54,339 nt of DNA, from positions 1 through 54,339 of the forward strand of contig JAHJRN010000016.1 of NCBI GenBank assembly GCA_018830865.1. Direction: 5' to 3'. Source of the DNA: Patescibacteria group bacterium (GTDB lineage: Bacteria; Patescibacteriota; Patescibacteriia; 2-12-FULL-60-25). The translations under genes were made by a program, and so were the position numbers. The first letter of the stretch is position 1; every line of letters begins with the position of its first letter. Positions 2,312-27,928 of the stretch are shown one piece after another. The notes under the pieces are model-generated. The model was not told the DNA's origin and did no database searches. It saw nothing but the letters and a program-made list of their open reading frames with translations.

Positions 2312-4150
2312 ATGTGCGGCATCAACGGCTTCACCTGGCAGGACCGGAATCTGCTCCGCAGCATGCATGCGGCGACGCGGCATCGCGGACCTGATGACGA
2401 AGGGTTTTTCGAAGCGCCCGGCATCTCCTTTCGGCAGAGCCGGCTCTCCATCATCGACCTTTCGCCGGCCGGTCATCAGCCCATGAGCACGCAGGACCAA
2501 AGGTTCACGATCATATTCAACGGAGAGATCTACAATTATCAGGAGTTGCGGAGAGAACTCGAACGGCTCGGCGAACGCTTTCGGTCGACATCTGACACGG
2601 AAGTCCTGCTTGCCGCGTTCGCTCGGTGGGGTGAGGCGTGCTTGCCGAAGCTGAACGGCATCTTCGCGTTCGCCATCTGGGACCGGGAGGAGCGTCGTTT
2701 GACGCTTGTACGCGATCACGTCGGCGTGAAGCCGCTCTATTATGCGTGGGACGGGGAGAAGCTCATCTTCTCATCCGAGATCAAGGCAATCCTCGTCCAT
2801 GATGTCGCGAAGGATATCGACACTGATGCACTGAATCAGTATTTCCGTTATCTCTATGTGCCGGGGCCGCGGACCATGTTCCGGTCCATCCGGAAGCTTC
2901 CGGCGGGACATGTCGCGACATTCCATGACGGCGTGTTCGACGTGCGGTCCTGGTGGTCGCTGAAGGAAGGGAACACGGTCGCGTCGTATAACGAAGCTGT
3001 CGAAGGCGTCCGACAGCGCGTGAAGGACGCGGTCAAACGACAGCTCGTAAGCGACCGGCCGCTCGGCGTCTTCCTGTCCGGCGGCATCGATTCGTCCGCG
3101 GTCCTTGGCATCATGGCCGAGATCGCGACAGGTCCCATCAGGACGTTTTCTGTGGGCTACGAGTCCTCGGCGCAGGCGGAGAAATACAACGCGGACGCAC
3201 GCCTCGCGGAGCTGACGGCGAAGCATGTCGGTGCCGAACACCGGACGTTCATCCTGTCGGCGGAGGAAGCGGCCGCGGACCTCGAAACGGTCGCGTGGCA
3301 TATGGATGAGCCTGTCGCGAACCATGTGCAATCTTCGACGTTCCTGCTCGCGAAGTCGGCGAAGCCGCATATCACGGTCGCGCTCGGGGGCGACGGCGGA
3401 GACGAGCTATTCGGCGGCTACAGTCGATACTGGTACAGCCGGACGATCGATAGGGTCAGGAGCCTTCCGTTGGGCGGGGAGACCGCGGCCGCGCTCGCGC
3501 TCCTCGTCGGGAAACCGGATCTCGCGATGAAGTTCGGTTCGCGCGCGGGTCTCGAGCGTCAGCTTGCGTTCGTCGCGCAGAAGGAAGGGGCGATCGGGTC
3601 GTTCCTGAAGAAGGACCTGAACCGTCCAGATGCCGTCGGCGAACCGCTCGGGCCGGTCTTCTCGTCCGCGTGGCGCGATGCGACGAATCAGCTCATGGCC
3701 GCGGACGTGCGGACGTGGATTCCGGACGAGTCGCTCATCCGGACGGACCGGCTCACGATGGCGCACGGCCTCGAGGAACGCGTGCCGCTCCTCGATCCGG
3801 AGCTTGTCGCATATGCATCCCGCGTCCCGTCGAGATTCAAGCTGAAGAATCGCCGTCAAGGAAAGCGTGTCTTTATCGATGCGATGCGCCCCTATCTCCC
3901 GCCGCATGTGCTCAACCAAGAGAAACGCGGATGGATGTCGCCCATGGCGAAATGGATTCGCGGGCCGCTCCTACCCCGTGTCCGTGAGATCCTCTCGCCG
4001 ACGTACGCGGACACTACGGCCTATCTCGACCTTTCCGCCGCGAACCGCATCCTCGACGATCACGTCTCGATGAAGGAATACGCATTGAACACGATCTGGT
4101 CCATCGTCGCGTTTCAGCTCTGGTGGAGGCGTTTCATGCAGAACGTATGA
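2312..4150 (+). CDS. asnB: Asparagine synthase (glutamine-hydrolysing) family amidotransferase, copy 1
   Basis: A 612-residue two-domain enzyme. After Met removal the N-terminal nucleophile would be Cys2 (MCGINGF), followed by the class II glutamine amidotransferase signatures RHRGPDDEG, FNGEIYNY and LNGIFAFAIWD. The C-terminal synthetase domain carries the PP-loop LSGGIDSSAVLG near residues 253-264 and the VALGGDGGDELFGGY motif. It should use glutamine and ATP to amidate a carboxylate. True AsnB makes asparagine. In O-antigen and capsule loci such genes also amidate uronic acids (for example WbpS in Pseudomonas aeruginosa O6), and the setting here favours that role, by inference. It starts 1 base after the previous stop and ends in an ATGA overlap with a methyltransferase. 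Confidence 0.93.
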   Translation: MCGINGFTWQDRNLLRSMHAATRHRGPDDEGFFEAPGISFRQSRLSIIDLSPAGHQPMSTQDQRFTIIFNGEIYNYQELRRELERLGERFRSTSDTEVLLAAFARWGEACLPKLNGIFAFAIWDREERRLTLVRDHVGVKPLYYAWDGEKLIFSSEIKAILVHDVAKDIDTDALNQYFRYLYVPGPRTMFRSIRKLPAGHVATFHDGVFDVRSWWSLKEGNTVASYNEAVEGVRQRVKDAVKRQLVSDRPLGVFLSGGIDSSAVLGIMAEIATGPIRTFSVGYESSAQAEKYNADARLAELTAKHVGAEHRTFILSAEEAAADLETVAWHMDEPVANHVQSSTFLLAKSAKPHITVALGGDGGDELFGGYSRYWYSRTIDRVRSLPLGGETAAALALLVGKPDLAMKFGSRAGLERQLAFVAQKEGAIGSFLKKDLNRPDAVGEPLGPVFSSAWRDATNQLMAADVRTWIPDESLIRTDRLTMAHGLEERVPLLDPELVAYASRVPSRFKLKNRRQGKRVFIDAMRPYLPPHVLNQEKRGWMSPMAKWIRGPLLPRVREILSPTYADTTAYLDLSAANRILDDHVSMKEYALNTIWSIVAFQLWWRRFMQNV

Positions 4151-10816: not shown

Positions 10817-11463
10817 TGCCGTGGGAGGCATTTTTTGATGAAGCGGTCCGTCAGGCGGTCCTTCCGGGATCGTCGGTTTTGGATATCGGAGCCGGCCTGC
10901 GCGTCGACGGATCGCGCGGCAACGTCGTGGATTCGACACGTGCGTGGATCAAACCGCTTCTCGAGCAGGCGACGTACGTCGTGATGGACCCGGTCGACAC
11001 GTATCATCCGGATATCGTCGCCGACGTGATGGACATGCCGAGCGTGGCGAGTGCGTCTTTCGACACGGTGTTCTGCCTCGCGGTCCTGGAACATGTCCCT
11101 CGTCCGTGGGACGCGATGCGCGAGATCCATCGGGTCCTGAAGCCAGGAGGGACGTTCGTCGGTTACGTCCCGTTCCTCTCGCCGTACCACGGTATGCCCG
11201 GGTATTACGGCGACTTCTTCCGCTATACGGATGAGGGCGTACGTTCCATCTGTTCCGGGTTCGTCGACGTTCGTCTCGTGCCGGTCCGTGGTCCGGTCGA
11301 GACGCTGGTCCACCTGCTTCCTGGGACGTTGCCCCGTCGTCTCCTCGGTGGATTGGTCCGCCGCATCGACGGCATCCGCCGTTCGTCCGGACATCAGGTA
11401 TCCGGGTATACGTTCACAGCGAAAAAAGCTTTGAACAACGATAATACTCATACGAATTTATGA
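10813..11463 (+). CDS. SAM-dependent methyltransferase
   Basis: A 216-residue class I methyltransferase. Motif I is VLDIGAGLRVDG, then VVMDPVDTYHPDIVADVMDMP and FDTVFCLAVLEHVPRPWDAMREIHRVLKPGG with GTFVGYVPF. The region after motif I is a little longer than usual and the protein is short. The start ATG at 10813 overlaps the wecB stop (an adjacent ATG at 10816 is also possible), and the stop overlaps the next start by ATGA. It lies in a run of sugar-nucleotide genes, so a sugar O- or C-methyl transfer is likely but not shown. Confidence 0.83.
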   Translation: MMPWEAFFDEAVRQAVLPGSSVLDIGAGLRVDGSRGNVVDSTRAWIKPLLEQATYVVMDPVDTYHPDIVADVMDMPSVASASFDTVFCLAVLEHVPRPWDAMREIHRVLKPGGTFVGYVPFLSPYHGMPGYYGDFFRYTDEGVRSICSGFVDVRLVPVRGPVETLVHLLPGTLPRRLLGGLVRRIDGIRRSSGHQVSGYTFTAKKALNNDNTHTNL

Positions 11464-12464
11464 AGGTCCTTGTCGTCGGAACGGGATATTGGGGTCCGAA
11501 CATCGTCCGGAACCTCGTGGAGTTCTCGGAAGTCGAGTGCATCGGCGTGTCGGATCTCGACCGGGCGAAGGCGGAGAAGATGGTCGCGCGATTCCCGCGG
11601 ACACGCCTTGCGGGTCCGGCACCGGAGGCGTTCGGCGAAGGATACGATGCGGCCGTCATCGTCACGCCAGTCGACTCGCATGCGCCTTTAGCCGAAGCCG
11701 CGTTACGGGCGGGTCTGCACGTCCTCGTCGAGAAGCCGCTGACGCGGACGTCCGCCGACGCGGAACGCCTCATCGCGCTCGCGGAGGAGAAGAATCGCCG
11801 CCTCATGGTCGGGCACGTGTTCCATTACAAGCCGGAAGTCCGCGAACTGGTCCGCCTTGTCGAATCGGGAGAACTCGGCAACGTCCGGTACATGGATTCG
11901 GTACGCGTGAACCTCGGCCTGTTCCGTTCCGACGTCAACGTGATGTGGGACCTCGCGCCGCATGACCTTTCCATCTTCGAGGCCATCATGAAGCGCATGC
12001 CGGAACGCGTTTCCGCCATCGGCGCGTGCCATGTGCATCATCCGACGACGCCGCAGGAGACGATGGTGCTCATGACGCTGGACTACGGCGACGGATGCCT
12101 CGGCCATGTGCACGTGAACTGGTTCTCGCCGCTCAAGCAGCGGACCATGGTCATCGCCGGCGACAGGAAGATGGCGGTCTACGACGACATCAACCCGACG
12201 CATCCGATCAAGGTCTACGACCGCGGGACCTACGATCCAGCCACGGATACGCCGATGTATCCCGCCCTACGGACCGGCGAGACGGTCAGCCCGCACGTGA
12301 AGCAGGAGGAGCCGCTCCGTATCCAGCTGCGGGAATTCTTCGGGGCCATCGCCGAGGGGCGTGCACCGGCGACGGACGGCGCCGCAGGCCTCCGTGTGGT
12401 GAAGCTCCTCGAGGCGGGCATGCGGTCGCTCGCCGAGGACGGCCGGTTCGTGAACGTCGCCTAG
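11460..12464 (+). CDS. Gfo/Idh/MocA family oxidoreductase (WbpB/WlbA-like)
   Basis: A 334-residue NAD(P)-dependent oxidoreductase. The N-terminal Rossmann motif is VVGTGYWGPNIVRNL, the catalytic EKPL follows VLVEKPLTRTSADAE, and the second domain has MWDLAPHDLSIFEAIM, matching the conserved histidine region. In glycan loci, enzymes of this family oxidise the C3 hydroxyl of UDP-N-acetylglucosaminuronate (WbpB/WlbA) ahead of transamination and N-acetylation. Here an acyltransferase and two DegT-type proteins follow, so that role is a good inference. The bases just upstream of the start (11440-11459) are unusually AT-rich. Confidence 0.88.
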   Translation: MKVLVVGTGYWGPNIVRNLVEFSEVECIGVSDLDRAKAEKMVARFPRTRLAGPAPEAFGEGYDAAVIVTPVDSHAPLAEAALRAGLHVLVEKPLTRTSADAERLIALAEEKNRRLMVGHVFHYKPEVRELVRLVESGELGNVRYMDSVRVNLGLFRSDVNVMWDLAPHDLSIFEAIMKRMPERVSAIGACHVHHPTTPQETMVLMTLDYGDGCLGHVHVNWFSPLKQRTMVIAGDRKMAVYDDINPTHPIKVYDRGTYDPATDTPMYPALRTGETVSPHVKQEEPLRIQLREFFGAIAEGRAPATDGAAGLRVVKLLEAGMRSLAEDGRFVNVA

Positions 12465-12507: not shown

Positions 12508-13956
12508 ATGACAATCCCGCTTTCGTACGTCTCGAAGGATTATGTGATACGCGGAAACCTGATCGATCTTATGGACGATCAGGCAGCATGGGATGCGGTC
12601 GACAAGCGCGTCCGAACGAGCGTCAGGAAGGGGAGGCGTATGGGCGTCCGCATCCGTCCTTTCGACACCACTACCGAGGAGCTCGACGTGCTCCGGTCGT
12701 TCACCCCGAACGACGATGATATCCCCGCGGTCTTCGAGGACCGCCATCACGCGTACGTCGCGATCGCGGAGGACACCGGGGAACGCCTCGGATGGATTCT
12801 GCTCGCGGGGGTCGGGCGTAAGCTCTTCATGCTCTGCCATGCCTCGACTCCGGAAGGAAAGCGGCGGCAGACGCCGAACCTGCTCCTGTGGCACGCTATC
12901 TCGACCTGGTGTGGCGGTCCGTATCTGACGCTCGACGTGGGCGCCTCGTATCGGCCGTCCCTGCAGGTCTACTTTCGGGGATTCCGTCAGCGGCCATACC
13001 CCATGGTCATGAAGCCCGCGGATTTTCCGATGGACCTCCGAATCACGCCGTTCGACACCGCGTCGTATGGGCTTGAGCCGCGGGATCCGAAGGAAGGGCG
13101 TCGTATCCTCGGCCACCTGTTCGGTACGGATGTGTTCACGGTGGTTCCGCGCGCGATGTACGCCATCGCGGCGTGCCTGCGCGAATACCGTGAACTCGGT
13201 CGACTCTCCGAAGACGACGAGGTCCTCATCTCCACGACGACCGGGACGCCGTACGTCTCGTCATGCGTCACGCGCGCCATCGAGGCGGTCTGTCGTTGGT
13301 CGCTCACGCCGTCCGAGAAGACGCGCGCCGTGCTCATGATCCACGAGTTCGGCTTCCTGAATCCGCATGCCGCCGCGCTCCGTCGTTTCTGCGATGAACG
13401 GGGCATCCCGCTCATCGAGGATCTGGCGTACGGATGGGGGAGCGCCGGGACAGGGACATGGGGAGACGTGCGCATCTACTCCGCGACGAAGACGTTTCCC
13501 CTGCAGTTCGGCGGTTTCCTCGTCGGGATGAGGATTCCGTTCCGTCGCCTATGGGATGTCCATGGCGCATCGGACCTCGGCAAGGAAGCGGAGACCCTCG
13601 CGACCTTCACGGCCGCTTGGTCCGACCTCGGGGTCGATCCGTTCACGTCCATCAAGGACGTACGTCGCGCGAACTGGGAGCGGTACGTCGAGAATCTCTC
13701 GTCCGTCCTGGATCCCTACGCTGACCTGCCTCCGGGCGTCATTCCCGGCGCGTTCCTTCTCAAGCTTAAGGATGAGGACGATATGCGACGCGTCTCCGCC
13801 TTCGTCCGCCGGTTCGGCATCGAGGTGGGCAACTGGTATCATCACGCCTCCATCTTCCTCCCGTGCCATCAGCGCATGACCCGACGTCACGTGGACTTCG
13901 TGTCCGGCGCCGTCCTCGCGAATTACCGCGAGGATTGCGGCATCCCGCACGTTTAG
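12508..13956 (+). CDS. Fusion of FemAB/GNAT-like N-acyltransferase domain and DegT-type aminotransferase domain
   Basis: A 482-residue single frame with two parts. Residues 1 to about 180 look like a FemAB/GNAT acyltransferase half: RTSVRKGRRMGVRIRPF, DIPAVFEDRHHAYVAIAE, LGWILLAGVGRKLFMLCHAS and YRPSLQVYFRGFRQRPYP. From about 195 on it resembles fold-type I PLP aminotransferases of the DegT/DnrJ/EryC1 group: TTTGTPYVSS, IHEFGFLNPHAA, IPLIEDLAYGWGS (Asp305) and YSATKTFPLQFGGFLVG, with Lys328 as the expected PLP lysine. The second half is shorter than a full DegT enzyme (about 290 against 360-400 residues). Such a protein could make an amino sugar and acylate it, but that is inference. A rho-independent terminator follows, so the gene is a single-gene unit. 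Confidence 0.7.
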   Translation: MTIPLSYVSKDYVIRGNLIDLMDDQAAWDAVDKRVRTSVRKGRRMGVRIRPFDTTTEELDVLRSFTPNDDDIPAVFEDRHHAYVAIAEDTGERLGWILLAGVGRKLFMLCHASTPEGKRRQTPNLLLWHAISTWCGGPYLTLDVGASYRPSLQVYFRGFRQRPYPMVMKPADFPMDLRITPFDTASYGLEPRDPKEGRRILGHLFGTDVFTVVPRAMYAIAACLREYRELGRLSEDDEVLISTTTGTPYVSSCVTRAIEAVCRWSLTPSEKTRAVLMIHEFGFLNPHAAALRRFCDERGIPLIEDLAYGWGSAGTGTWGDVRIYSATKTFPLQFGGFLVGMRIPFRRLWDVHGASDLGKEAETLATFTAAWSDLGVDPFTSIKDVRRANWERYVENLSSVLDPYADLPPGVIPGAFLLKLKDEDDMRRVSAFVRRFGIEVGNWYHHASIFLPCHQRMTRRHVDFVSGAVLANYREDCGIPHV

Positions 13957-13963
13957 CCCTCCG

Positions 13964-13986
13964 CCCCGACCTTCGGGGTGTTTTTT
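13964..13986 (+). terminator. Rho-independent terminator
   Basis: A 6-bp GC stem ccccga (13964-13969) and tcgggg (13973-13978) with a 3-base loop is followed by tg and a run of six T. It lies directly after the fusion gene; its T run overlaps the -35 box of the next promoter. Confidence 0.85.
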
Positions 13987-14041: not shown

Positions 14042-14551
14042 ATGCATCGAGGTGGGTATACATGCGGTGATGACGTCGACCTCGCGGAAGACGTCCATCC
14101 GAATTTTGTGGTGATGGGCAGCCGCGTGCGCATCCGCACCGGCACCATCCTCTTCGGGTCCGTGGGCCGTCCGCTGACCATCAGCGATGACGTGTACGTA
14201 AACGCGAAGTGTGTCCTGCATGGCGGGGCCGCGCAGCTCATCATCGGAAACCGCGTGACGCTCGCCGTCGGCGTGGCCATCCATACCGACTCGGGGCCGA
14301 ACACGTCCCCGTTGCTGCAGAAGGATTTTCCCATCCTTGCAAAGGATGTAGCTATCGAAGACGACGTTTGGATCGGCGACTATGCCGTCATCCTTCCGGG
14401 CGTGACGATCGGTCACGGATCGGTTATCGGCGCCGGCACCATCGTACGACGATCCGTCTTGGCGCATACGGTCGTCGTAGGGAATCCCCAGAAGATCCTT
14501 CGGATCCTCGAACACGCGAAACTCAAATGCTATGCCTGTACCCCTCCTTGA
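14042..14551 (+). CDS. Hexapeptide-repeat (left-handed beta-helix) acyltransferase
   Basis: A 169-residue trimeric LbH-type acyltransferase. Imperfect hexapeptide repeats run through FVVMGSRVRIRTGTILFG, LIIGNRVTLAVGVAIHT and VAIEDDVWIGDYAVILPGVTIGHGSVIGAGTIV, ending with VVVGNPQKILRIL, the usual last coil of NeuD/WbpD/maltose acetyltransferase relatives. HTDSGPNTSP forms the loop that carries the catalytic His in the family. It would N- or O-acetylate a sugar nucleotide using acetyl-CoA. The start is set by a strong AAGGAGG site. It overlaps the DegT gene by 20 bases, so the pair probably acts together (transamination, then N-acetylation). Confidence 0.9.
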   Translation: MHRGGYTCGDDVDLAEDVHPNFVVMGSRVRIRTGTILFGSVGRPLTISDDVYVNAKCVLHGGAAQLIIGNRVTLAVGVAIHTDSGPNTSPLLQKDFPILAKDVAIEDDVWIGDYAVILPGVTIGHGSVIGAGTIVRRSVLAHTVVVGNPQKILRILEHAKLKCYACTPP

Positions 14552-15632
14552 CCTGAAGCGTGACGTCGTCGCGCACCGTGACGAATACCTGTCCGCCATT
14601 GCCCGTGTCGTCGACTCGGGCACTTTCATACTCGGACCGGAAGTCGAAGCGTTCGAAGCGGCCTTCGCGTCGTTCCTCGGGGCGAAGCATTGCGTCTGCG
14701 TGAACAACGGGACGTCGGCCCTGTACGCGGCGTACCTCGCCCTCGGCATCGGCCCCGGCGACGAGGTCATCGTTCCGGCCAACACCTTCATCGCGACCGC
14801 CGAGGCCGCATCCATGACGGGCGCGACGCCGGTCTTCGTCGACATCGATTCCGCGACGCATCATCTCGACGTACAGGACCTCGATCGCGTCGTCACGCCA
14901 CGGACCAAGGTCGTGGCCGTGGTCCACCTCTTCGGCATGGCCGCCGACGTCGCGGTCGTGAAGGCGTGGGCCGACCCGCGCGGCATTGTCGTGGTCGAGG
15001 ACACGGCGCAGGCGCATGGTGCGATTCTCGCGGATGGACAGAAGGCCGGCACGGCCGGAGCTATCGGTTGTTTCAGTTTTTATCCCACCAAGAACCTCGG
15101 GGCCTTCGGCGAGGGGGGTGCGGCGGTCACGGACGACGACGCGCTCGCAGAGCGTCTCCGCGCCATCCGCGCGCATGGCGCGACGACCCAGAACCGACAT
15201 GAGACGTTCGGGACGAACCTCCGCATGGAGGCGTTCCAGGGTGCCTTGCTCGGCGTGCGCCTCCTGCGACTCGCCGCGGCTGCGGAACGACGTCGGTCGA
15301 TTGCGGCACGTTATCGCGCCGGACTCGCGGGAATTCCTGTCGCGCTGCCTCCTGACGTCGGCGCGCGTCACGTCTTCCATCTCTTCGTCGTCACGACCGA
15401 CCGACGCGACGCGTTGAAGGAGCATCTTGCGTCACGCGGTATCGGGAGCGCTATTCATTACCCGACCGCATGCCCGGACCAGCCCGTGTACGCCTCCCGT
15501 GGCATCGCCGGGACCTGCCCGAACGCGACCGCCGCCGCTGCGAGAATCCTGTCCCTGCCGATGTTCGCCGAGATGACGGACGTGGAGGTGGACGAGGTCA
15601 TCGATGGCGTCCGGTCGTTTTTCCTCGCGTAA
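14532..15632 (+). CDS. DegT/DnrJ/EryC1/StrS sugar aminotransferase
   Basis: A 366-residue PLP-dependent aminotransferase of full family length. It has GTFILGPEVEAFEAAFA, NNGTSALYAAYLALGIGPGD, VPANTFIATAEAA, VHLFGM, VVVEDTAQAHGA (Asp157) and CFSFYPTKNLGAFGEGG with the internal-aldimine Lys187. ATTQNRHETFGTNLRMEAFQ matches the substrate-binding end. It should convert a keto-sugar nucleotide to an amino sugar using glutamate, as WbpE/WlbC do at C3. It overlaps the acyltransferase gene by 20 bases and is followed 4 bases later by a GT2 gene. Confidence 0.93.
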   Translation: MPVPLLDLKRDVVAHRDEYLSAIARVVDSGTFILGPEVEAFEAAFASFLGAKHCVCVNNGTSALYAAYLALGIGPGDEVIVPANTFIATAEAASMTGATPVFVDIDSATHHLDVQDLDRVVTPRTKVVAVVHLFGMAADVAVVKAWADPRGIVVVEDTAQAHGAILADGQKAGTAGAIGCFSFYPTKNLGAFGEGGAAVTDDDALAERLRAIRAHGATTQNRHETFGTNLRMEAFQGALLGVRLLRLAAAAERRRSIAARYRAGLAGIPVALPPDVGARHVFHLFVVTTDRRDALKEHLASRGIGSAIHYPTACPDQPVYASRGIAGTCPNATAAAARILSLPMFAEMTDVEVDEVIDGVRSFFLA

Positions 15633-16471: not shown

Positions 16472-18385
16472 ATGTGCGGCATCGCAGGATATGTCGGGAA
16501 CGGTTCGCGCGAGGCGTTGCGTCGCATGGGCGAGGCAATCGCGCGTCGAGGCCCGGACGACCACGGGACGCATGAGGCGCCGGGCGTCGGTTTCGCGTTC
16601 CGCCGGCTGTCCATCATCGACGTCGAGGGTGGTCATCAGCCGATATCGAACGAGGACGCGTCCGTCTGGGTGATGCTGAACGGCGAGATCTACGGGTTCG
16701 CGTCCCTGCGCGATGAGCTCATCCGGTCCGGGCATCGGTTCCGTACGCGGACGGACACGGAAGTCGTCGTGCACGCGTACGAGGAATGGGGAGACGCCTG
16801 TTTCGGGCGGTTGGAAGGGATGTTCGCCCTGGCCATCTGGGATGCGCATGCCCAACGCCTCGTCCTCGCGCGTGACCGGCTGGGCAAGAAGCCCCTGCAT
16901 TGGACGACGCGGAACGGGACTATCTGGTTCGCCTCGGAACTCAAGGCGTTGCTTGCGGCGGGTATCGTCGATCGGGATATCGACCCCGTGTCCCTCGGCC
17001 TGTATTTCCGGACGGATGCGGTGCCGACGCCGCGGACCATCTTCCGTGGCGTCTCGAAGATGGAACCCGCGACGGCTATGGCTTGGCGGAACGGAGAGGT
17101 GGAACGGACGTGGTCGTTCTGGCGATGTCCCTTGGATGTCATGACCGACCCTTCCCCAAAGGATGTTGTCGCGGGCCTAGGTGCATGCGTCGACGGTGCT
17201 GTGCGGGAGCGCCTCGTTTCGGACGTGCCGCTCGGACTCTTCCTGTCCGGAGGCCTCGATTCCGCCGTGGTCGCCGAGAGCGCGAGCCGGCAGTCATCCA
17301 CGCCGCTCAAGGCGTTCACTGTCGGGTTCGACGAGGCATCGCACGACGAGACGCCCATCGCACGTATGGTCGCGAAGGCGCTCGGGCTCGATCATCACGT
17401 CGAGACGCTGACGGCAGGGGATGCGCTCCTCATGCTGGACGAGGCGATTCGCGTCCTCGACGAGCCGCTCGCGGACCCATCCATCCTGCCGCAACTCCTC
17501 CTTTCTCGGTTCACACGTCGTCATGTGACGGTCGCGTTGTCCGGCGACGGGGGTGATGAGCTCCTGCTCGGCTATCAGCATATTCCGGCCCATGTCTGGA
17601 CGCGTCGTCTCGTGCGGCTTCCCCTCTCGATCCGATCCGTCGCCGCGTCGCTTCTCGCCTCGGTCCCAGCAGGGGGAGGTTATTTCAGTGCTGGCTTCAA
17701 GGCTCAGCGCCTCGCCCGAGGTATCGCCATCGACGATCCGTGGACTCGCGATACAGCTTGGCGCGGTGCATTCACGGCCGACGGCCTTACGTCGATTCTC
17801 GCACCTGACGTCGCGTCCGCCGCATTCGTCGGCACAGCGGAGACAACCCTGGCGTTACGCGCCGATGAGGCCGTATCGGACCCGTCGGATGAGCAGGACG
17901 ATTTTTGGAAGCGGTGGACATGGGCCTATCTCCGGACGTTCCTCATGGACGACGTGATGGTGAAGGTGGATCGCGCGACCATGTGGTACGCCCTTGAGGC
18001 GCGCGCGCCGCTCCTGGACCGCGCGGTCGTCGAATACCTCCTGAAACTTCCACCGTCGTTCAAACTGGGCCGATGGTCCGGCAAGCGACTCTTCAAGGAT
18101 CTCCTTCGTGGCAAGGTCCCGGACGCGGTCCTTCGCCGTCCAAAGCACGGGTTCGGCGTCCCGGTCTCGGACTGGCTCCGTGGTCCGCTCGCGGCCCGAC
18201 TCGCAGACCTCACCTCGCCGGACTTCCTTCGCGAACAGGGGCTGTTCGACGCCGACGCCGTCGGCCGTCTTGTCGCGGAACATAGCGCAAAACGGGTCGA
18301 TCGGCGGAAGGAATTATGGGCTTTACTGATGTTTCAGCTGTGGTACCGTAGGTGGATGATGCGCGACACATCTGAACGCCTTTGA
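16472..18385 (+). CDS. asnB: Asparagine synthase family amidotransferase, copy 2
   Basis: A 637-residue paralogue of the protein at 2312-4150, with the same domains. MCGIAGYVG supplies the nucleophile Cys2, followed by RRGPDDHGTHE, LNGEIYGF and LEGMFALAIWD. In the synthetase half are the PP-loop LSGGLDSAVVAES and VALSGDGGDELLLGY. The alignment with copy 1 is partial and the sequences are clearly different, so this is not a recent duplication. It may amidate a uronic acid or amino-sugar acid of the glycan; real asparagine synthesis cannot be excluded for either copy. It is followed after 1 base by a methyltransferase. Confidence 0.93.
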   Translation: MCGIAGYVGNGSREALRRMGEAIARRGPDDHGTHEAPGVGFAFRRLSIIDVEGGHQPISNEDASVWVMLNGEIYGFASLRDELIRSGHRFRTRTDTEVVVHAYEEWGDACFGRLEGMFALAIWDAHAQRLVLARDRLGKKPLHWTTRNGTIWFASELKALLAAGIVDRDIDPVSLGLYFRTDAVPTPRTIFRGVSKMEPATAMAWRNGEVERTWSFWRCPLDVMTDPSPKDVVAGLGACVDGAVRERLVSDVPLGLFLSGGLDSAVVAESASRQSSTPLKAFTVGFDEASHDETPIARMVAKALGLDHHVETLTAGDALLMLDEAIRVLDEPLADPSILPQLLLSRFTRRHVTVALSGDGGDELLLGYQHIPAHVWTRRLVRLPLSIRSVAASLLASVPAGGGYFSAGFKAQRLARGIAIDDPWTRDTAWRGAFTADGLTSILAPDVASAAFVGTAETTLALRADEAVSDPSDEQDDFWKRWTWAYLRTFLMDDVMVKVDRATMWYALEARAPLLDRAVVEYLLKLPPSFKLGRWSGKRLFKDLLRGKVPDAVLRRPKHGFGVPVSDWLRGPLAARLADLTSPDFLREQGLFDADAVGRLVAEHSAKRVDRRKELWALLMFQLWYRRWMMRDTSERL

Positions 18386-18386
18386 T

Positions 18387-19157
18387 ATGCAGGAGAAACA
18401 TGGCGAATGGGCGTGGCAGTGGGCGAATTTCCCGGACGTGGATGAGTGGCTGTTTTCGGATTGGATCGCGCCCGTGACCCTGGAGGATTTTCGCGGGAAG
18501 CGCGTCCTCGACGCAGGATGCGGGGGTGGGCAGTATCTCTCGCTCATCGCGCCGTACGCGCGTGAGGCGATCGGCGTGGACCTGAACACCGCGCATATCG
18601 CCGCGGAGCGCAATCGCGTCCACCCGAACGTGCGCACGGTCGAGGGCGACATCGCGCTTGCCTCGTTCCCGGAGACGTTCGATCTCGTCTACTGCATCGG
18701 CGTCATCCACCACACGGACGATCCAGACGCGACGTTCCGGAACCTCGCGGCACAGACGGCACAAGGCGGCCGCACGGTCGTATGGGCGTATTCCCACGAA
18801 GGGAATTTCTTGAACCGCACCCTGGTCGAAGGCGTGAAGCGCCTGTTCGTCCTCCGTCTGCCGAAAGGCGTCGTCCGCGCCATCGCGTACGTCCTCGCGA
18901 CGCTGATGTATCTCCCGATCTACACGCTCTATCTGTTGCCGCTCCCGTGGCTTCCATACTACGAGTATTTCCGGAATTGGAGGAAGCTGACGTATCGCAT
19001 GAATATCCTGAATGTGTTCGATAAGCTGAATGCCCCGCAAACGCATTTCATCACGCGCGACCGCATCGAGCGCTGGTTCGTCGAGAACGGGTATCGCGAC
19101 ATCCGTATCCTTCCGTATCGCGGCGTGAGCTGGCACGGGGACGGCGTGAAGGTATGA
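18387..19157 (+). CDS. SAM-dependent methyltransferase with membrane-associated tail
   Basis: A 256-residue protein. VLDAGCGGGQYLSLIAPYA (motif I), AIGVDLNTAHIA, VRTVEGDIALASFPETFDLVYCIGVIHHTDDP and GGRTVVWAYSHEGN place it in the class I methyltransferases. A hydrophobic segment (VVRAIAYVLATLMYLPIYTLYLLPL) near residues 170-195 suggests membrane contact. The last residues HGDGVKV overlap the start of the radical SAM gene by ATGA, so the two are coupled. Confidence 0.85.
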   Translation: MQEKHGEWAWQWANFPDVDEWLFSDWIAPVTLEDFRGKRVLDAGCGGGQYLSLIAPYAREAIGVDLNTAHIAAERNRVHPNVRTVEGDIALASFPETFDLVYCIGVIHHTDDPDATFRNLAAQTAQGGRTVVWAYSHEGNFLNRTLVEGVKRLFVLRLPKGVVRAIAYVLATLMYLPIYTLYLLPLPWLPYYEYFRNWRKLTYRMNILNVFDKLNAPQTHFITRDRIERWFVENGYRDIRILPYRGVSWHGDGVKV

Positions 19158-20578
19158 CGGAGACGACGAACCTTGCGAGGAAGCGCGTCGTGCTGCTGAA
19201 CCCGCCCGGATCGCGGAAGTACTTCCGTGACTATTTCTGCACGCTCGTCTCCAAGGCGCGATACTACTACCATCCGGTCGACCTCATCTACCTCTCCGGC
19301 ATCCTCGACCGCGCCGGGTGGTATGTCGAATGCGTGGATGCCATCGCCGAAGGATTGACGCCTGAACAGACAGCGGCCCGCGTCGAACGATGCGCGCCGG
19401 ACCTTGTCGTCTACCTCATCGCCTCGCCGTCCTACGACGAAGACGTCCCGTTCCTGACGATGCTGAAGGGACGCGTCCCGCAAGCGACGTTCGTGGGCTC
19501 GGGCGACATCTATCGCGAGCTGCGCGAACGCGCGTTGGAGTTGCATTCGTTTTGCGACGCGGTCCTCACGGATTTCTCGACGTCGGATTTGACGGACTGG
19601 CTCTCGCGGACCGAGGACACGCTCGTCCGGAACGTCATCTACCGCGCGGCGGACGGACGTATCCTCGCGGGCGAGGAGACACATGGCCGTGGCGCGTACC
19701 ATCTGCCCGTCCCGCGTTGGGACCTGTGGCCGCTCGACCGGTACATCTTCGCGTTCGCGCGTCATCGCCGGTGGGCGACTGTCCTCACGGATTTCGGGTG
19801 CCCGTTCTCCTGCCTGTTCTGCCCCATGAGCACGACGGGATACAAGCTGCGCGACATCGACACGGTCATCGACGAAATACGTCTCCTTCGGAGCCTCGGT
19901 ATCCGCGAGATCTTCTTCCGCGACCAGACGTTCGGCGTGGACCGCGTGCGGACGCAGGAGCTGCTGCGCCGCATCCGCGAGGAGTTCCCGGGCCTGTCAT
20001 GGACCTGCTGGTCCCGCGTGGATCTCGTGACGGCGGATTTCCTGAAGTCCATCGTTGAGGCGGGGTGCCACACCATCATGTTCGGCATCGAATCCTCCAA
20101 CGAGGACGTGCTGAAGCAGTACAAGAAGAACACGCGGCGTCAGCAGATGGAACAAGCATTGCGTATGTGCGAGGACGTGGGGCTTCGCACCGTCGGGACG
20201 TTCGTCATCGGCCTGCCCGGCGAGAGCAAGAAGTCCATCCTCCGGACCATCGAGTACGCCCGCGACATCCCGCTCGACTTCGCGTCGTTCAACATCGCGA
20301 CCCCGCGGTTCGGCTCGACCTTCCGCCGTCTGATGAAGGAACAGGGCGCGGTCGACCTGGACCGCATGACGTACGATTCCTCGAAATCGTCGCCGACGTG
20401 GACCGGGGACGCGGGGACCGATACGCTGTCCAACAAGGAAATCTTCCGGCTGCAACAGCGCGCCATCCGGCGTTTCTATCTCCGTCCCTCCTACCTGTTA
20501 CGCCGCCTGCGCCGCATCCGTAGCGCGTATGAGCTGTACGCGCAGGTCCGCGAAGGGTGGGACCTCCTGATATCCTGA
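19154..20578 (+). CDS. B12-binding-domain radical SAM protein
   Basis: A 474-residue protein. Residues 1-150 form a Rossmann-like B12-binding-type domain (RVVLLNPPGSRKYFRD, HPVDLIYLSGILDRAGW), but no DxHxxG base-off motif is seen. The radical SAM core has Cys216, Cys220 and Cys223 (GCPFSCLFCP) for the 4Fe-4S cluster, FFRDQTFGVDR, IMFGIESSNEDVLKQYKK and VGTFVIGLPGESKKS. The C-terminal part is basic. The family often does C-methylation or other radical changes on lipids, sugars or natural products. The neighbours (methyltransferases and GT2 genes) suggest a glycan or lipid carrier as target. It overlaps the methyltransferase start by ATGA. Confidence 0.87.
   Translation: MTETTNLARKRVVLLNPPGSRKYFRDYFCTLVSKARYYYHPVDLIYLSGILDRAGWYVECVDAIAEGLTPEQTAARVERCAPDLVVYLIASPSYDEDVPFLTMLKGRVPQATFVGSGDIYRELRERALELHSFCDAVLTDFSTSDLTDWLSRTEDTLVRNVIYRAADGRILAGEETHGRGAYHLPVPRWDLWPLDRYIFAFARHRRWATVLTDFGCPFSCLFCPMSTTGYKLRDIDTVIDEIRLLRSLGIREIFFRDQTFGVDRVRTQELLRRIREEFPGLSWTCWSRVDLVTADFLKSIVEAGCHTIMFGIESSNEDVLKQYKKNTRRQQMEQALRMCEDVGLRTVGTFVIGLPGESKKSILRTIEYARDIPLDFASFNIATPRFGSTFRRLMKEQGAVDLDRMTYDSSKSSPTWTGDAGTDTLSNKEIFRLQQRAIRRFYLRPSYLLRRLRRIRSAYELYAQVREGWDLLIS
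20568..20576 (+). promoter_or_regulatory. Extended -10 promoter, leaderless type
   Basis: TGATATCCT: a TGn extension plus TATCCT at 20571-20576, 6 bases before the ATG at 20583. It overlaps the radical SAM stop codon (20576-20578). No convincing -35 box is visible. Confidence 0.5.
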
Positions 20579-26168: not shown

Positions 26169-27008
26169 ATGACCGACGAGAATAAGGCGTTCTATCGCAA
26201 GCACGCGGATACGATCTGGGCCAAGAGGTTCGACGCGCCCGATCCCATCCGCCGACACGCGCACCGCACGCAGTACGCCGCGCTCATCGACACGCTCGGC
26301 AAGGGGAGTGTCCTTGACGCCGGTTGCGGCGAAGGTGTCATCCCCATCCTGCTCGCGGAACGCGGCAGGGCGTCTGTCGGCGTGGACCTCTCGGAACCGA
26401 ACATCGCCGCGGCGCGTGCGCTCGCGGCCGGACGCGGCCTCGCGCATCTCGCGACGTTCGAGGTCGGCGACGCCGAGCGTCTCCCGTTCGCCGACCGGTC
26501 GTTCGACACGGTCGTCTCGTCGCATGTGCTCGAGCATCTCCCGGATTTCGACGCCGGGTTCCGCGAACTGTGCCGCGTCGCCCGTCGCCGCGTCGTGGTC
26601 GCACTCCCGACCTGTCTCAATCTGTCGGCGGCCGCGCTCCTCGGAGGCGATCACGGGTATTGGAAGTTCTCGAAGCGTTCGTTCCTCGCGTTGCCGTGGG
26701 GCCTCCTGCGCATCATCGGCCATCTCTTCGGCGAAGGCGTGCAGGAAGGATACGCAGGTCGCGACGACCTACCGCACGTCTGGCGTTACCCATGGGTGAT
26801 GCGACGATGTCTCCGTCATCCGGAGTTCGTCATGACGTCCTTCCGCGCGTCCACGTTCGTCCTCCCGTACGCCACATGGTCGCTCCCGTTCGTCCGTTGG
26901 CTCGAGCGGTATCGGAGCGCCCCGTTCCTGCGGAATTTCGGGTATGGGAGCATCGCTGTCCTTGAGAGGAAAGACCCTTGCCAGGAGGGGAAACTTCCCG
27001 TAGGGTAG
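26169..27008 (+). CDS. SAM-dependent methyltransferase
   Basis: A 279-residue class I methyltransferase: VLDAGCGEGVIPILLAERG (motif I), SVGVDLSEPNIAAARALA, GDAERLPFADRSFDTVVSSHVLEHLPDFDAGFRELCRVARRRVVVALP. The C-terminal half (WKFSKRSFLALPWGLLRIIGHL) resembles UbiE-like methyltransferases of glycan loci. It is preceded by a TACAAT -10 box 19 bases upstream and is followed 14 bases later by the UDP-sugar dehydrogenase. The substrate is unknown. Confidence 0.86.
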   Translation: MTDENKAFYRKHADTIWAKRFDAPDPIRRHAHRTQYAALIDTLGKGSVLDAGCGEGVIPILLAERGRASVGVDLSEPNIAAARALAAGRGLAHLATFEVGDAERLPFADRSFDTVVSSHVLEHLPDFDAGFRELCRVARRRVVVALPTCLNLSAAALLGGDHGYWKFSKRSFLALPWGLLRIIGHLFGEGVQEGYAGRDDLPHVWRYPWVMRRCLRHPEFVMTSFRASTFVLPYATWSLPFVRWLERYRSAPFLRNFGYGSIAVLERKDPCQEGKLPVG

Positions 27009-27022
27009 GGGGACAAAAACGT

Positions 27023-27928
27023 ATGACGCGGATCGCCATCATGGGCACAGGGATGGTCGGCGGGGCGCTTGCCCGCTATTTTCGGACCCAGCACGTCGAG
27101 CCGGCCCTGTACGACCCCCCGAAGGGACATGACGACACGTCCGCCCTCGCGGATGCGGACGTGATTTTCGTCGCGGTGCCGACGCCGTACTATTTGGACG
27201 GTTCGGGCTTCGACGAGTCGTTCCTTCGCGCTGCGCTCGATGCCATCCCGGGCGAGAGCAAGACCGTCGTCCTCAAGTCCACCATCCTCCCCGGGACGAC
27301 CGGGCGGTTCCAAGCGCTGTATCCCCGGCATCGCATCCTCTTCAATCCGGAATTCCTGACCGAGACCACGGTCGACCGCGACATGCAGAACCCGAACCGG
27401 CAGATCGTCGGGTTCACGCCCGAGAGCCGCCGCGACGCGGAGCTCGTCATGGGGCTCCTGCCGCGCGCGCCGTTCGAGAAGATCGTCCCGGCAAAGGCCG
27501 CGGAGCTCGTGAAGTATTTCGGCAACGCGTTCTACGCCCTCAAGGTCACGTTCGCGAACCAGATGCACGACGTGTGCGCGAAGCTCGACGTGGACTACGA
27601 CGCCGTGAAGGAATGCGCCAAGGCCGAACCGTGGATCGGGACGCATCATCTCGAGATTTTCCATAAGGGCTATCGCGGATACGGCGGGAAGTGCCTGCCC
27701 AAGGACACGCGGTCCATCATCCAGCTCGGCGAGTCGTTTGACGTCGACCTCTCCGTCCTCAAAGCGGCCGAGGCGTATAATAACGCGCTCCAGACCTCCC
27801 AGGGCATCGACATACAGTGGGAGGAGGGAAGCCCACGGAAAGAACGTCAATCAGATTGTCATTCCCGTGAAGACGGGAATCCAGAACTGTCTCCGAAATC
27901 GGATGGATTCCCGCCTGCGCGGGAATGA
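27023..27928 (+). CDS. ugd: UDP-glucose/GDP-mannose dehydrogenase family protein, short form ending in a palindromic repeat
   Basis: A 301-residue oxidoreductase. RIAIMGTGMVGGALARYF is the NAD-binding motif; VFVAVPTPYYLDG, KSTILPGTT, FNPEFLTETTVDRDMQNPNRQIVG and YRGYGGKCLPKD with catalytic Cys224 follow. It would oxidise a UDP-hexose(NAc) at C6 to the uronic acid. The C-terminal UDP-binding domain of full-length enzymes (about 430 residues) is missing: after the central helical domain the chain ends in CHSREDGNPE and later residues, positions 279-301, which are encoded by a dispersed palindromic element. Short family members exist, so activity is possible, but a repeat-caused truncation is equally so. 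The ATG at 27023 follows an AGGGGG site. Confidence 0.82.
   Translation: MTRIAIMGTGMVGGALARYFRTQHVEPALYDPPKGHDDTSALADADVIFVAVPTPYYLDGSGFDESFLRAALDAIPGESKTVVLKSTILPGTTGRFQALYPRHRILFNPEFLTETTVDRDMQNPNRQIVGFTPESRRDAELVMGLLPRAPFEKIVPAKAAELVKYFGNAFYALKVTFANQMHDVCAKLDVDYDAVKECAKAEPWIGTHHLEIFHKGYRGYGGKCLPKDTRSIIQLGESFDVDLSVLKAAEAYNNALQTSQGIDIQWEEGSPRKERQSDCHSREDGNPELSPKSDGFPPARE

Follow-up and report, generated by a model that had tools for sequence, protein, structure and literature searches.

A fused FemAB-DegT gene and its neighbors

The window, by which we mean the whole 54,339-nt stretch of DNA that was analyzed, belongs to a Patescibacteria genome of 1.14 Mb whose close relatives are labelled Candidatus Uhrbacteria. 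At 12508..13956 on the forward strand it contains a frame that begins with ATG and encodes a 482-aa protein, in which a FemAB-type GNAT half is fused to a short DegT-type PLP domain. A single GNAT domain (residues 1-172, 12508..13023) is followed by a junction with helices (residues 173-206, 13024..13125) and a compact fold-type I PLP domain of the DegT/ArnB type (residues 207-482, 13126..13953). The motifs RTSVRKGRRMGV and FRGFRQRPY occupy residues 36-47 and 156-164, while the DegT-type motifs IEDLAYG and YSATKTF contain Asp305 (codon 13420..13422) and Lys328 (codon 13489..13491), which by homology to DegT enzymes would be the partner of PLP N1 and the Schiff-base lysine of PLP. An earlier note on this DNA had named these residues and motifs, read the frame as a FemAB/GNAT-DegT fusion and listed a Gfo/Idh gene, a hexapeptide transferase and a full DegT as its neighbors; each of these is present as described, and the fusion is borne out by the frame itself, by a structural model and by full-length relatives.

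The gene upstream encodes a Gfo/Idh/MocA oxidoreductase (11460..12464, forward strand; PF01408, 4.5e-22), for which the nearest NCBIfam model is the UDP-GlcNAc 3-dehydrogenase NF040723 (8.7e-48; 163 of 450 bits, below cut-off). Downstream on the same strand are a hexapeptide-repeat acyltransferase of the WbpD/NeuD kind (about 14042..14551; PF00132, 1.6e-11), the start of which was placed at 14042 from AAGGAGG and from homologues, and a full-length DegT aminotransferase (14532..15632; PF01041, 1.1e-111). Among the ten other complete fused loci described below, Gfo/Idh is encoded upstream on the same strand in every one and directly adjoins the fusion in seven, and the hexapeptide acyltransferase is downstream in six; every other fused locus has a full DegT close by. 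The fusion and the hexapeptide gene are separated by a terminator-like hairpin, CGCCCCGACCTTCGGGGTG, followed by TTTTTT (13962..13980, forward strand), and may therefore at times be transcribed apart; the region has five terminator-like sites, against 2.7 expected by chance.

Five other genomes carry full-length homologues without internal stops (72, 64, 49, 45 and 36% identity). When 84,980 species genomes were scanned by pattern, ten fused loci emerged, one of them interrupted by a contig end, from Uhrbacteria, Peribacteria/Peregrinibacteria, Taylorbacteria and unclassified Patescibacteria. Several genomes are common to both searches, which when pooled give complete fused relatives in ten other Patescibacteria assemblies (identity 72 to about 33%), the recurrence in other genomes that the earlier note had named as support. 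Within its class the fusion is carried by five of 381 genomes; in an even sample of 380 genomes across the phylum it was seen solely in the source genome of the 482-aa protein, and among 192 genomes of the class to which locus L021 belongs solely in the query genome.

An assembly join or a frameshift artefact is ruled out by these full-length homologues and by the presence of the same junction in independent assemblies. We also considered an origin from phages or plasmids and rejected it, as phage records gave no match, and plasmids and viral contigs gave weak partial DegT matches only.

AlphaFold2 predicted the full-length protein with a mean pLDDT of 92.3 and a pTM of 0.89 from an alignment of 14 sequences. 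The junction has a pLDDT of about 89-96 in this model, whereas most of residues 173-182 fall below 50 when the N-terminal half is modelled alone, which suggests that the junction rests against the DegT half instead of forming a loose tether. Where dS could be estimated, it was 1.3 to 2.4, close to saturation, and ratios of the dN/dS type came to about 0.09-0.25 for either half; amino-acid change is restrained in the GNAT half and the DegT half alike, despite the near-saturated synonymous sites. The two-domain fused protein is genuine, far beyond chance. Its rarity and its reality are both underlined by the finding, described further below, that the same two parts are adjoining separate genes in other phyla.

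In one fused relative, L020:8001-9407 (G033), identity to the 482-aa protein is 72% over the GNAT half and just 36% over the DegT half. There the TTT-PY motif is changed and Ser325 is replaced by Asp, with Lys328 and Asp305 retained; the DegT half of this protein evolves much faster.

No Pfam or NCBIfam model that we found covers the whole FemAB-DegT architecture, no virus protein spanning both halves stands out in BFVD, and our literature searches returned no description of a FemAB-DegT or GNAT-DegT fusion. The fusion is a new arrangement of known families, and its N-terminal half is not a canonical FemAB member.

The N-terminal half

Modelled on its own (pLDDT 85.5, pTM 0.80), the N-terminal half forms one GNAT domain, the counterpart of the second such domain in FemAB/FemX. 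A Foldseek search of the PDB with this model placed Sbb17 (9wqw, 1.6e-8) and Sba18 (9wqy, 2.4e-7) first and FemX (1xe4, 6.3e-7), FemA (1lrz, 4e-6) and also MprF next, each of them named or known as an aminoacyl-tRNA-dependent transferase, ahead of every acetyl-CoA enzyme. The GNAT/FemAB fold that the earlier note had proposed for this half is thus recovered. Since its closest solved relatives are of the aminoacyl-tRNA-dependent type, the models support in outline an N-terminal half that is FemAB-like and not acetyl-CoA-like. An identity as an acetyl-CoA GNAT was considered and is less likely, because FemABX/MprF-type structures top the Foldseek results and acetyl-CoA GNATs score weaker.

At the sequence level, Pfam FemAB (PF02388) matches residues 24-66 of the 482-aa protein below threshold, with 9.6 bits against a cut-off of 24. 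Acetyltransf_6 (PF13480, cut-off 22) gives no match in the 482-aa protein and 18.8 bits, below cut-off, in L027; in the fused relative L017, one frame exceeds the curated Pfam cut-offs of both families, with 30.4 bits for Acetyltransf_6 and 37.5 for DegT (cut-off 19.8). A sequence search of the PDB with the N-terminal half gave weak PanZ matches alone (E 0.016). When alignment was compared with alignment by hhalign, the fused N-terminal half matched the second GNAT domain of the split FemAB-like proteins described below (probability 95.9%, E 5.2e-9); its profile against one such protein as a single sequence gave a weak match (probability 4.6%).

In FemX the first GNAT domain forms half of the acceptor site. 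No such domain is seen in the full-length or the N-half model of the fused protein, and the hhalign match reaches the second domain only. Further, the position aligned to the Lys305-type catalytic lysine of FemX, whose functional role we take from PMC12945691, is Arg157 (codon 12976..12978) and is variable, being R, E, S, T or K across the fused proteins and Lys in the split FemAB-like partners; the alignment there is short and has low confidence. Invariant charged residues of the half include Lys10, Asp11, Lys118 and Asp143, and Arg149 is nearly invariant. With the first domain missing and the Lys305 position variable, the N-terminal half may use another residue, possibly Arg149, or may be a binding domain.

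The C-terminal half

With the whole model as query, Foldseek ranked DegT-type enzymes first among PDB entries, namely TlmJ (5uid, 8.7e-13), WecE (4piw, 4.1e-12) and PseC (2fn6, 1.9e-10), in keeping with the PLP fold type I that had been predicted for this half. Pfam DegT_DnrJ_EryC1 (PF01041) matches residues 270-338 of the 482-aa protein with 24.8 bits against a cut-off of 19.8, and the C-terminal half by itself with 27.0 bits (3.3e-6). An hhalign comparison of the short DegTs with full DegTs from the same clusters covers 281 columns (E 2.6e-20) and matches Lys328 and Asp305 to the catalytic lysine and aspartate. Both residues are invariant in an alignment of 14 sequences and in every fused or split member, L020 included.

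Compared with the full DegT/DnrJ/EryC1/StrS aminotransferases (TlmJ, WecE, PseC, WbpE), with which it shares the fold-type I PLP domain and the conserved Asp and Lys, the domain is short, by about 50 residues against the neighboring full DegT, has HEFG in place of H-x-x-G and is joined to a GNAT half. In the ED-x-A-Q motif, the Gln (third after the Asp, at PLP O3') gives way to Tyr308 here and to His, Trp or Glu in relatives, a departure specific to this clade and no ground for exclusion across the DegT_DnrJ_EryC1 family. The short DegTs form a distinct clade, as a gap in clade-profile scores shows: fused and split members all score 1.9e-61 or better, whereas the full DegTs of the same loci reach 3e-16 at best, and two DegT-like proteins further away lie at about 1e-20. 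A tree of the DegT halves agrees, grouping fused and split members apart from full DegTs with support of 100/100; a single origin of the fusion is weakly supported (49/77).

Split forms in other phyla

Stand-alone short-DegT genes (286-311 aa) were found at three Omnitrophota loci (L028, L029, L039) and in a Cytophagales genome (L030). At all four, the short DegT is preceded on its own strand by a gene for a FemAB-like protein (323-338 aa), directly in three cases and with one methyltransferase gene in between at L039. Three of these FemAB-like proteins were scanned, and two matched Acetyltransf_6. Their best NCBIfam match is TIGR03019 (FemAB family XrtA/PEP-CTERM system-associated), found in all three at 25-67 of 260 bits, far under its cut-off, whereas the fused 482-aa protein gave no match. 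The fourth scores 4e-154 against the profile of the first three, though it was itself included in that profile. Within the stretches examined, a Gfo/Idh gene was not seen at any split locus, which makes the FemAB-like gene the constant partner of the short DegT. The Omnitrophota and Cytophagales gene pairs are a split version of the fusion.

At L014:8008-10039 (minus strand, G046) a FemAB/Acetyltransf_6 gene with the FK-x-GFGG motif retained is overlapped by a more remotely related DegT-like gene, another case of the two families paired within the same class. WbmS-like polysaccharide deacetylases (PF22537) are encoded shortly upstream of two split pairs (L029:4535-5275 and L030:3351-4082).

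Discussion

The fold and the partnership of the two halves are well supported, and the chemistry is inferred. We favor, tentatively, the reading that the fused protein is a two-domain enzyme of surface-polysaccharide (amino-sugar) synthesis, in which the DegT half aminates a keto-sugar and the FemAB-type half acylates the resulting amine. The Gfo/Idh enzyme (11460..12464) is a candidate maker of a 3-keto sugar nucleotide, and could supply, or act on, the same keto-sugar nucleotide pool. The compact DegT domain would bind PLP on Lys328 and transfer an amino group onto the keto-sugar; the N-terminal domain, as the acyl-donor half of a FemAB/FemX-type transferase, would then acylate the newly made amine, and the fusion would keep the two steps together. 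Given the structural kin of the N-terminal half, an aminoacyl group from aminoacyl-tRNA is a likelier donor than acetyl from acetyl-CoA. A precedent for such chemistry on an amino-sugar compound is Orf11, a FemABX-type relative reported in a review to glycylate streptothrisamine from Gly-tRNA (PMC12945691).

In favor of two linked steps are the ten fused relatives, the confident model, the DegT fold with invariant Asp305 and Lys328, the aminoacyl-tRNA-type kin of the N-terminal half, the four out of four split pairs, the conserved neighbors and the constraint on both halves. Against it count the unconserved Lys305-type lysine, the missing first GNAT domain, the shortened DegT half with Tyr308 for Gln, the terminator-like hairpin 3′ of the fusion, and L020, with its diverged DegT half beside a conserved GNAT half; moreover, the separate hexapeptide acyltransferase and full DegT nearby could already perform both reactions. 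The earlier note's proposal of amination and acylation in one enzyme stands in part: the coupling of the two parts is upheld by the split neighbors, and a FemAB-like N-terminal half in outline, whereas a first GNAT domain and conservation at the Lys305 position are missing. Catalysis by both halves on one molecule, and the lipid-linked acceptor that the note had raised as an alternative, are hypothetical.

These gaps could instead mean that the DegT half is the sole enzyme and that the FemAB-type half is a non-catalytic domain binding a UDP-sugar, a lipid-linked substrate or a partner enzyme. The N-terminal half touches the DegT half and orders the junction with it, and the invariant Lys10, Asp11, Lys118 and Asp143 could serve binding alone. 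We nevertheless consider this somewhat unlikely, since the GNAT half is constrained about as strongly as the DegT half, is far better conserved in L020, and has a conserved polar pattern, including Arg149, that suggests an active site. The roles could also be reversed, with the GNAT half as the working enzyme and the short DegT as a scaffold, or as a PLP protein that does not aminate, standing in for the missing first GNAT domain in shaping the acceptor site. The loss of about 50 residues, Tyr in place of Gln at PLP O3′, the strong divergence of the DegT half but not the GNAT half in L020, and the full DegT aminotransferases encoded nearby would all fit; yet no fused or split member, not even L020, departs from Lys328 or Asp305, which would not be expected of a scaffold and makes this option improbable.

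Finally, both halves may be active on different substrates, with the fusion merely equalizing the dose of two cluster enzymes. With another aminotransferase and another acyltransferase in the cluster, the products may include two distinct acylamino groups, and the split genes can be separated by one gene. We hold this to be the least probable option, as the repeated pairing of the same two families in unrelated phyla and the ordered junction both suggest a closer link. Returning to the favored reading of amination followed by acylation, a more specific and speculative version, which we think unlikely as it stands, is a bifunctional synthase in which PLP-dependent amination is followed by attachment of a tRNA-derived amino acid, the DegT domain providing the acceptor site instead of the lost first FemAB domain, and Lys305 giving way to a new residue, perhaps Arg149. 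If true, a bifunctional enzyme would tie the tRNAs of protein synthesis to the decoration of surface polysaccharides in Patescibacteria.

Several known systems come close to the fusion. With FemABX (FemX of Weissella, FemA; PF02388) it shares the fold of the second GNAT domain and an R-x-x-x-R-K helix region, but it has one GNAT domain, a variable Lys305 position, a sub-cut-off Pfam score and an attached DegT. Sbb17, Sba18 and Orf11, from streptothricin-type antibiotics, include the best solved structural relatives of the N-terminal half; Sbb17 and Sba18 are named as aminoacyl-tRNA-dependent and were solved with streptothrisamine. Unlike the fusion, these proteins are stand-alone (285-288 modelled residues) and have no PLP domain. 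The neighboring Gfo/Idh 3-dehydrogenase-like enzyme, full DegT and hexapeptide acyltransferase are of the enzyme kinds of the WbpB-WbpE-WbpD route to GlcNAc3NAcA (PMC10622841). However, that pathway has no counterpart of the fusion, and the sole UDP-sugar 6-dehydrogenase-like gene found in the genome is incomplete: the frame at 26978-27925, the only match to the UDP-sugar dehydrogenase N-domain, covers the profile from position 71 onward, and a C-terminal domain was not found.

Together with the split neighbors, the fusion makes a Rosetta-stone case for a working partnership between a compact DegT and the FemAB-like proteins found in polysaccharide clusters. It thereby offers a role open to testing for FemAB-like proteins beyond peptidoglycan, relatives of the PEP-CTERM-associated family among them, and for the little-noticed short-DegT clade. 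In the window, two asparagine-synthase-like amidotransferases (2312-4150 and 16472-18385) flank the amino-sugar genes, and both resemble the XrtA/PEP-CTERM amidotransferase model, below its cut-off. A B12-binding radical SAM gene (19154-20578) lies inside the polysaccharide cluster, and several radical-SAM-looking genes are also found near the split pair at L039.
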